Shown here one piece after another: positions 36,021-38,193 of a DNA stretch of 64,000 nt. The position numbers and the translations under genes were made by a program. Location: contig NZ_DS990556.1 in NCBI RefSeq assembly GCF_000155635.1, forward strand, positions 672,416 through 736,415, in the 5' to 3' direction. The notes under the pieces were generated by a model. It was not told where the DNA came from, did no database searches, and saw nothing but the letters and a program-made list of their open reading frames with translations. The DNA is from Cyanobium sp. PCC 7001 (GTDB lineage: Bacteria; Cyanobacteriota; Cyanobacteriia; PCC-6307; Cyanobiaceae). Every line of letters starts with the position of its first letter. Position 1 is the stretch's first letter.

Positions 36021-37058
36021 ATGGCACGGCCGCGGGTCCTCTCAGGGGTGCAGCCCACGGGCGCCCTGCACCTGGGCAACTGGCTCGGTGCCATCCGCAA
36101 CTGGGTTGACCTGCAGGACAGTCACGACACCTTCTTCTGTGTGGTGGATCTGCATGCCATCACCGTGCCCCACGATCCAGCCCAGCTGGCCGAGGCCACC
36201 CTCACCACGGCGGCCCTCTACCTGGCGTGCGGCATCGACCCGGCCCGGTCCACCGTGTTCGTGCAGAGCCACGTGGCCGCCCACAGCGCCCTGTGCTGGC
36301 TGCTGAACTGCGTGACGCCGCTCAACTGGCTGGAACGGATGATCCAGTTCAAGGAAAAGGCGCTGAAGCAGGGCGATCAGGTGTCGGCGGGCCTGCTCGA
36401 CTACCCGGTGCTGATGGCCGCCGACATCCTGCTCTACGACGCCGATCTGGTGCCCGTGGGGGAAGACCAGAAGCAGCACCTCGAACTGGCCCGGGACATC
36501 GCCCAGCAGAGGATCAACGCCCGCTTCGGCAGCCCCGGACCCGACGGGGAACCCCTGCCGGTGCTCAAGGTGCCCGAGCCGATGATTCTCACGGAGGGGG
36601 CCCGGGTGATGAGCCTCAGCGACGGGCGCAGCAAGATGAGCAAGAGCGATCCCAACGAGGGCTCCCGCATCACGCTCCTGGACCCGCCGGAACTGATCAG
36701 CAAGAAGATCAAGCGGGCCAAGACCGATCCCACCCTGGGCCTGGAATTCGGCAACCCGGAGCGGCCCGAGGCCGACAACCTGCTCGGCCTCTATGCCCTC
36801 CTGAGCGGCAAGGGCCGCCAGGCTGCCGCCACCGAGTGCGCCGAGATGGGGTGGGGACGCTTCAAGCCCCTGCTCACCGAGGTGTTGGTGGAGGCCCTGG
36901 CCCCGGTGCAGGAGCGCTACCGGAACTGGCGGGGGGACCCCGGGGCCCTGGAACAGGTGCTGGCGGAGGGTCGCCAGCGGGCGGAGAGCGTGGCTGAGGC
37001 GACGCTGGAACGCGTCCACGACGCCCTGGGCTTCCTGCCACCCAGGCCCCTGGCCTGA
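36021..37058 (+). CDS. trpS: Tryptophanyl-tRNA synthetase
   Basis: 345-residue class I synthetase that charges tRNA-Trp. The HIGH-like motif is HLGN (residues 17-20) after LSGVQPTGAL, the KMSKS motif is in RSKMSKSDPNEGS, and GEDQKQHLELARDIA is the conserved Rossmann segment. Length is normal for bacterial TrpRS. ATG at 36021. A hairpin-rich non-coding region follows. Confidence 0.98.
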   Translation: MARPRVLSGVQPTGALHLGNWLGAIRNWVDLQDSHDTFFCVVDLHAITVPHDPAQLAEATLTTAALYLACGIDPARSTVFVQSHVAAHSALCWLLNCVTPLNWLERMIQFKEKALKQGDQVSAGLLDYPVLMAADILLYDADLVPVGEDQKQHLELARDIAQQRINARFGSPGPDGEPLPVLKVPEPMILTEGARVMSLSDGRSKMSKSDPNEGSRITLLDPPELISKKIKRAKTDPTLGLEFGNPERPEADNLLGLYALLSGKGRQAAATECAEMGWGRFKPLLTEVLVEALAPVQERYRNWRGDPGALEQVLAEGRQRAESVAEATLERVHDALGFLPPRPLA

Positions 37059-37527
37059 GGGCGAGCGGGCCCCTTCAGGCAGAGCCTCCGGGACTGCCGC
37101 GGAGCGAAGGGAAACCCCGCGGCGGAGTTCGCTGCGCCGGCACTGGAGGGGGTCGCATGGGGGACAGTTGCAAGACCGTCCGGGCCACCCTGGCCAGACT
37201 TGCCGGTTCTCGTGAGGGTTGAGTGGGTAGGTATATCTGCGGCCAGGGGGGCAAATTATGCCGCTGGCGGCTTAACACTTTCGACAGGATCGATCAGCCG
37301 CGCTGATCCTTCCGGGCCCCTACGCCCCCTTGACGCCCTCTTCGCCAAGGCCGCGATCCTGAACCACCAAGCCTGTGCCGGCAGCCCTCGCGGGCTTCAG
37401 GAGACCAGTCTCACGGCTTGTCCAAGGTCTGGATGCATGCGCCGATGCCTTTGTCAACTCCCCAGGCCAGGGAGTAGCTGCCGTCACCCACGGATCAGCA
37501 ACGTGTGGCGACTCGCTTGATCCCTGA
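37059..37527. other. 469-base non-coding region with a series of hairpins
   Basis: The only stretch over 300 bases without a convincing gene. Hairpins found by eye are: AGCGAA/TTCGCT with an outer GCCG/CGGC (37096-37141); a nested GCAAG/CTTGC plus GGCCA/TGGCC (37170-37203); GCCAG/CTGGC (37242-37268); GATCAGC/GCTGATC (37292-37308); AGCCC/GGGCT (37383-37396); GAGAC/GTCTC (37401-37412); and ACTCCC/GGGAGT (37457-37475). It is less GC-rich than its surroundings near 37225-37300. It could be the trpS 3' region plus a long leader of the next gene, or a structured non-coding RNA of either strand. Confidence 0.5.
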
Positions 37528-38193
37528 CTGAAGCCCTCCTTTCTCCAGCACCCGGCCCGCCGTCCCCTGGCGATCGCGGCCTGCCTGGTGGCGGCACTCC
37601 CCACCACCCTGGCGGCCTCGGCCGAACTGCCCGGAGGTCCCGCCCGCCTCGACGCGGCCGCCAGCCGCCTCCCGGCCGCCACCCGCGTGGCCGCGCGGAA
37701 GGCCCAGGGGCCGTTCACGATCACGCCGCAACGCCGGGCCCTGCTGGACACGATCCGCTACGCGGAGGGCACCTGGAAGGGTGGACGCCCCGAGGGCTAC
37801 CGCGTGCTCTACGGCGGCCAGCTGTTCTCCCGCCTGGATCGCCATCCCGAGATCACCGTGCGGCGCCGCTACACCAGCGCGGCCGCAGGGGCCTACCAGT
37901 TCCTTCCTGGCACCTGGAGGGAAGTCTCACGGCGCATGGGCCTGCGCAGCTTCGAACCCCACAACCAGGACCAGGCAGCCCTCTACCTCGTTCAGCGCCG
38001 GCGAGCCCTGCACCTGTTCGACCGGAAGGGGCTCGACGCTGAGGTGATGGCCCGCCTGGCACCCGAATGGGCCTCCCTGCCGGCGCAGCATGGGGGCAGC
38101 TACTACGGACAGCCCGTGAAGAGCCGCCAGGAGCTCACCCGCTTCTACCAGGGGGCACTGGCCCGGGCCCGACAGCAGAACCGCGCGGCCTAG
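37528..38193 (+). CDS. Exported lambda-endolysin-like muramidase (GH104)
   Basis: 221 residues if started at CTG 37528. The only frame that gives a signal peptide begins there: KPSFLQHPARRPLAIAACL, then VAALPTTLAASA. The next start, GTG 37588, would cut the signal in half. The catalytic domain matches phage lambda R point by point: catalytic Glu in YAEGT, then VLYGGQLF, SAAAGAYQFL, NQDQAALYLV and EWASLPA with a closing GGSYYGQ. It should cut peptidoglycan between MurNAc and GlcNAc in the periplasm. No phage genes lie nearby, so it looks domesticated. Confidence 0.85.
   Translation: MKPSFLQHPARRPLAIAACLVAALPTTLAASAELPGGPARLDAAASRLPAATRVAARKAQGPFTITPQRRALLDTIRYAEGTWKGGRPEGYRVLYGGQLFSRLDRHPEITVRRRYTSAAAGAYQFLPGTWREVSRRMGLRSFEPHNQDQAALYLVQRRRALHLFDRKGLDAEVMARLAPEWASLPAQHGGSYYGQPVKSRQELTRFYQGALARARQQNRAA

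Follow-up and report, generated by a model that had tools for sequence, protein, structure and literature searches.

Between trpS and a gene for a lambda-lysozyme-like muramidase, the 64-kb stretch of Cyanobium sp. PCC 7001 DNA analysed here (the window) contains a gap of 469 nt (37059–37527). Its borders are the TGA stop codon of trpS (37056–37058) and an in-frame TGA (37525–37527) standing before the frame that opens at 37528, so that the intergenic gap described in the first-pass annotation is real. The longest listed ORF lying wholly within it has 106 aa; the first-pass view that none of its ORFs looks like a protein was judged against relatives only. As part of the joint reading set out below, we lean towards a description of this region as a variable intergenic spacer in which two conserved elements, block A and element B, are set (Table 1).

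Table 1. Features of the trpS–muramidase region, in window coordinates
Feature	Position	Strand	Evidence or remark
trpS, tryptophan--tRNA ligase	36021–37058	+	NCBIfam TIGR00233, E 2.5e-102, above cut-off; Pfam tRNA-synt_1b
Variable spacer	37059–37270		blastn against the closest relative's spacer: no convincing match
Conserved block A	37271–37311		Closest relative aligns at 90% identity (E 1.6e-12)
Dyad GATCAGC-CGC-GCTGATC	37292–37308	+	Probable trpS 3'-end hairpin, or protein-binding site
Small dyad GAGAC-CA-GTCTC	37402–37413		Possible operator, a lead only; upstream-dyad excess over shuffles, post hoc
Element B	37433–37510	+	Alignments A1 and A2; leave-genus-out model match at 37434–37507
Element B motifs	CA 37436–37437; TTGTCAA 37451–37457; AGCAACGT 37497–37504	+	
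CTG, probable start codon	37528–37530	+	In-frame TGA directly before; 75 bases after the GTC of element B
Lambda-lysozyme-like muramidase, probably exported	37528–38193	+	PHROG 90; PDB 1am7; signal peptide by eye

The downstream gene encodes a probable secreted lambda-type lysozyme. Its product matches the PHROG 90 endolysins (E 2.6e-36) and, over residues 65–192, the lysozyme structure PDB 1am7 (E 9.4e-20), while no Pfam or NCBIfam family matches it at E 0.001. It resembles the phage lambda-type lysozymes and endolysins in sequence (1am7, PHROG 90) but, unlike those, its gene is chromosomal, is fixed beside trpS and encodes an N-terminal signal-like peptide. Both trpS and a lysozyme of this family are present in all 13 genomes of the genus, and the two genes are linked in 12 of them; in the thirteenth, which is 77% complete, no lysozyme lies beside trpS. 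Across the family, 70 of the 73 loci compared carry both genes on the fetched stretch, the remaining three (L104, L106, L156) having been left out for want of a trpS on it. Two of the retained loci, L085 and L157, are one place in one genome, and both are counted among these 70 as well as among the 68 loci discussed below. One locus, L084 (Synechococcus sp. CCY 9618), has about 1.1 kb of extra DNA between trpS and the lysozyme gene, coding for a protein that, by eye, looks exported and has a PEP-CTERM-like end.

Most of the gap is variable. A nucleotide search of 300 family genomes, in which only two candidates per genome were scored, gave as its best genome one (G072) that aligns with window positions 37451–37600 at 81% identity and with 37271–37311 at 90%, followed by a second (G099) with 70% identity over 37432–37577. 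Because of the restriction to two candidates, we aligned the gap directly with the spacer of the nearest relative. The same two blocks emerged (E 1.7e-37 for 37451–37600 and 1.6e-12 for 37271–37311), and the remainder matched only in pieces of 10–30 bases with an E-value of 0.40, among them the 30 bases at 37362–37391. The distance from the trpS stop to the GTC of element B ranges from 111 to 394 bases across loci.

What the relatives have in common ahead of the lysozyme gene is a linear pattern of CA, some 15 bases, TTGTC[C/A]A, a G-rich stretch with TnG, and AGCA[A/G]GGT. This pattern, element B, was assigned in 68 of the 70 loci (43 by a scripted pattern and 25 by hand with anchors chosen by eye), the two exceptions, L153 and L154, having no recognisable copy. 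From the GTC to the second motif there are 43–46 bases in 41 of the 43 scripted loci, and 36 and 39 in the other two; since the script allowed only 36–52 bases between the motifs, and 25 of the 68 loci were set by hand, this spacing and the conservation of the anchored columns are partly built in. An independent test came from a model built from the 53 rows of other genera only. Its best match fell on element B in all 12 loci of the window's genus (E < 0.01 in six, 0.012–0.057 in six), and in the 64-kb window its top match was 37434–37507 on the + strand, with an E-value of 0.043 and 11.4 bits against 5.3 bits for the next. In the reverse test, a model of the genus alone placed its best match on element B in only 27 of the 53 other loci, with E < 0.01 in seven.

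With a sequence-only model of all 65 rows, 12 of the 13 genus genomes each showed a single strong match, which lay at the lysozyme gene; 133 of 250 family genomes had at least one match with E no higher than 0.1, counting weak matches too. We dropped the idea of a regulon: among the matches listed, seven weaker ones were opened, of which six fell within long ORFs or on the strand opposite them and the last (L195) was itself element B before a lysozyme gene. Element B is of near-constant length across the family and is defined by its linear motifs, not by hairpins. Like the conserved promoter and 5' leader regions of single bacterial genes, it is short, occurs in single copy, is tied to one orthologous gene and stands at a fixed distance from the start codon; unlike them, it has no recognised promoter or Rfam family, its length is nearly constant and the start codon that follows is weak. 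The first-pass annotation had proposed that the gap might be a long regulatory leader of the hydrolase gene. In reduced form this proposal is supported by the comparisons above, in that the last 95 or so bases appear to be a conserved control region (promoter or leader) of the lysozyme gene; the control region is not hairpin-based, however, and does not take in the whole gap. A limited literature search returned, among the matches listed, nothing on element B or on CTG starts in cyanobacteria.

Element B may act as DNA, in a promoter, or as RNA, in a leader. If it were mainly DNA, comprising a promoter and protein-binding sites, its constant distance to the start codon would follow from a constant transcription start, and this reading is a serious one, although we stop short of calling it probable. 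It is favoured by the lack of RNA pairing in element B (see below) and by what lies just upstream. Five relatives within the genus (L067, L068, L069, L070, L071) carry a palindrome, GTCGCAnnTGCGAC, whose end is exactly 42 bases ahead of the GTC in each; it is absent in the window, and all five copies come from close relatives, which counts against their weight. In the 68 loci, the two 10-base bins that span positions 50 to 30 ahead of the GTC each contain dyad centres from 13 loci, against about five in shuffled sequence, but other 10-base bins also exceed the shuffles, with up to 10 loci. The words GTCTC and GAGAC peak at −60 to −46 (18, with eight or fewer in other bins), and the window's own GAGAC/GTCTC pair (GAGACCAGTCTC, one of the hairpins of the first-pass annotation) is centred at −46.5. 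Since the palindrome counts came only when the pattern was already known, the test being picked once the motif was seen, and used mononucleotide shuffles only, we take the upstream dyads as a post hoc lead in favour of a protein-binding promoter region and not as proof of one. Also against the DNA reading, no sigma-70 −35/−10 pair or other promoter-like site was recognised on the + strand, the only match being on the − strand (37284–37255), and the motifs run on to the start codon. DnaA boxes, sigma-54 and ECF promoters, CRP and NtcA sites and a Yfr1 target site were considered by eye from their motifs and dropped.

The dyad of block A has counterparts in much of the family. Dyads of the GATCA-N7-TGATC type follow trpS in 45 of the 70 loci, with a 7-base centre in 44; in 15 of the 45 the dyad begins 16–17 bases past the trpS stop, and in the window it lies 233 bases past it. 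We consider the dyad probably a hairpin at the 3' end of trpS, weakly supported but likelier than a protein-binding site. Like an intrinsic terminator, block A would offer a GC-containing stem-loop just after a gene; unlike one, it has no T-run behind the stem, no terminator-like site was called in it, and the compensatory evidence is weak, as contiguous runs of pairing in the flanks of the dyad are longer than in shuffled flanks (p 0.0096) and total pairing is not above them (p 0.87).

Block A could instead be an array of protein-binding sites built from TGATC half-sites, with no terminator role, which we think possible but rather unlikely. The p-value for total pairing would suit such an array, as would the constancy of the 7-base centre and a further CTRATC copy at the trpS stop codon itself in 16 of the 70 loci, its partner or right arm lying 31–32 bases on. 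So would the 12 matches to the dyad pattern, at 10 places, in the window's own genome, where a reversed control gave none; yet, with one exception, these places lie within ORFs 240 nt or longer, not all of which are genes, and not in promoters. The longer contiguous pairing also argues against the array, and a start 16–17 bases after the trpS stop in a third of the dyads fits a 3' end. Loci in which the first of the CTRATC copies sits at the trpS stop include L069, L070, L115, L120, L132 and L145, among others.

On the far side of element B, an NTG codon in the lysozyme frame lies 73–83 bases (median 76) after the GTC in 64 of the 68 loci. With canonical codons preferred, it is TTG in 32, CTG in 20, GTG in seven and ATG in five. 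The window's genus has CTG at +75 to +77 in 11 of its 12 loci, and in none of the 12 is there an ATG, GTG or TTG from +60 to +84. Outside that interval, L066 has a TTG at +87, and L077, the sole locus of the genus without CTG at +75 to +77, has a GTG at +36 and a TTG at +54. An in-frame stop abuts the CTG in the window and in its closest relative and stands two codons before it in three more loci, whereas in L070 and L074 the frame is open further upstream and holds in-frame NTG codons there. In control windows of five codons inside the gene, CTG occurs in 121 of 340 and ATG, GTG or TTG in 80 of 340. CTG being so common in the controls, the case for it draws on the lack of alternatives and on a distance that stays constant, and taken together these suggest that the lysozyme gene in this genus probably starts at this rare codon.

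Against a CTG start, the AGCA[A/G]GG motif is too distant from the CTG for a usual Shine-Dalgarno site, and in E. coli the normal initiator tRNA is reported to favour GUG and UUG over CUG (PMC11497404). A changed initiator tRNA was considered as the basis of CTG use and ruled out: the normal initiator-type stem-loop, GGGCTCATAACCC, is present in 12 of the 13 genus genomes, the miss being the genome that is 77% complete, and its copy in the window's own genome sits in a tRNA-Met, so that no special tRNA explains the codon.

The gene might alternatively start at GTG 37588, 60 bases past the CTG, which would then go unused. This is the first ATG, GTG or TTG in the lysozyme frame of the window, and gene callers would take it. 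We nevertheless judge such a start improbable, since by eye the GTG lies in a hydrophobic stretch and would cut the signal peptide, and since in the closest relative the first 160 bases past the GTC contain no codon of this kind, yet the peptide is conserved there. With no ATG, GTG or TTG before GTG 37588, a CTG start at 37528 would be missed by gene callers restricted to those three codons, and automatic annotation would probably truncate the gene, at the cost of the lysozyme's signal-like peptide.

The gap had first drawn attention for its hairpins, read as a possible sign of a structured RNA or a regulatory leader. All nine arm pairs then named are present in it, each an exact reverse complement, but the stems are no commoner than elsewhere. 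Perfect stems of at least 5 bp number 21, against 15.4 ± 4.2 in 300 dinucleotide shuffles (9% of which reach 21), and 51% of 159 window tiles of equal length have as many or more (tile mean 21.7). For stems of at least 6 bp the count is eight, against 4.2 in shuffles (5.7% reach eight), and 26% of tiles reach it. On the + strand the gap has the folding energy expected from shuffles (z −0.03), and on the − strand one close to it (z −0.82). The number of stems is at background. Moreover, since only 37271–37311 and 37451–37600 align convincingly, the conserved blocks leave out four or five of the seven hairpins. The GATCAGC/GCTGATC hairpin is inside the first block, ACTCCC/GGGAGT is in the second but its pairing is not general among relatives, and GAGAC/GTCTC is at a site where some relatives also carry a small dyad.

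The alignments of element B likewise yielded no covarying helix. RNAalifold returned no consensus pairs on alignment A1 (60 of the first 65 element B rows), and in a covariation analysis of 52 non-redundant rows no helix stood out, its two top column pairs being non-complementary and marking instead two element B subtypes, GTCmACCCCC and GTCCAGnnCGG. (Alignment A2 holds 65 of the 68 rows, with L114, L117 and L157 left out.) The mean folding z over 65 element B sequences was −0.33, and −0.50 on the other strand. By eye some relatives had suggested a closing helix, TTGTCCAG/CTGGGCAAGG, but it failed across the alignment.

Searches with Rfam 15 (4227 models, riboswitches and tmRNA included) agree with the first-pass annotation, which could match the gap to no known riboswitch or tmRNA. 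Up to an E-value of 5 they give two matches, both eukaryotic, below threshold and within the adjoining coding regions, and none in the gap itself. At the gathering score a tRNA at 2030–2103 is all that passes in the whole 64-kb window, and in 20 of the 70 relatives' loci there were two sub-threshold matches, both outside the spacer. Some riboswitches, like this gap, lie 5' of a wall hydrolase gene; unlike them, it has neither a model match nor a covarying helix. Although every named stem exists, and the element B of a few relatives (e.g. L136 and L148) folds as a single long hairpin, a fold that is not general, a structured non-coding RNA or riboswitch spanning the entire gap, as in the initial interpretation, is very improbable, given folding at shuffle level, stems at background, element B with a mean z of −0.33 and no consensus pair, no Rfam family, and a sequence mostly unconserved even in the nearest relative.

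We therefore arrive at a joint reading that we favour by a modest preference, in which block A ends trpS and element B belongs to a promoter-proximal control region or leader followed by a weak CTG start. The trpS message would end at the short stem-loop of block A, which would act as a terminator without a T-run. The lysozyme gene would have its promoter-proximal control region and its leader in element B and the bases on to 37527, where the spacing of the motifs, both among themselves and relative to the start codon, is nearly fixed. With a transcription start near TTTGTC, the leader would be about 80 nt long and largely without structure. Translation would begin at a weak codon (in this genus CTG), and this weakness may serve to keep a wall-cutting enzyme low. 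Several results sit less easily with this reading: neither a promoter-like nor a terminator-like site was found on the + strand, the E-value in the window is modest (0.043), the genus-only model does best on element B in barely half of the other loci, CTG is frequent in the control windows, and L070, L074 and L077 have upstream NTG alternatives.

More tentatively, the arrangement may hold throughout the picocyanobacteria. A sequence-conserved, unstructured leader of near-constant length, about 80 nt, would then set translation of the secreted lysozyme, whose start codon would have to be a weak one: TTG or GTG, or the very rare CTG seen in this genus and certain others. The leader would stand in for a normal Shine-Dalgarno signal and make the enzyme low or signal-dependent. 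A vague hairpin-rich gap would in either case give way to a testable control element of some 95 bases, common to a large picocyanobacterial group. Should initiation at CTG prove true, the orthologues with ATG, GTG, TTG and CTG behind one leader would make up a natural series in which to ask how weak starts are used by bacteria. The genus also has a second lysozyme gene (paralogue loci L050–L062, e.g. L052, G000:C1:358189-361767), which by eye seems often to be started by TTG.
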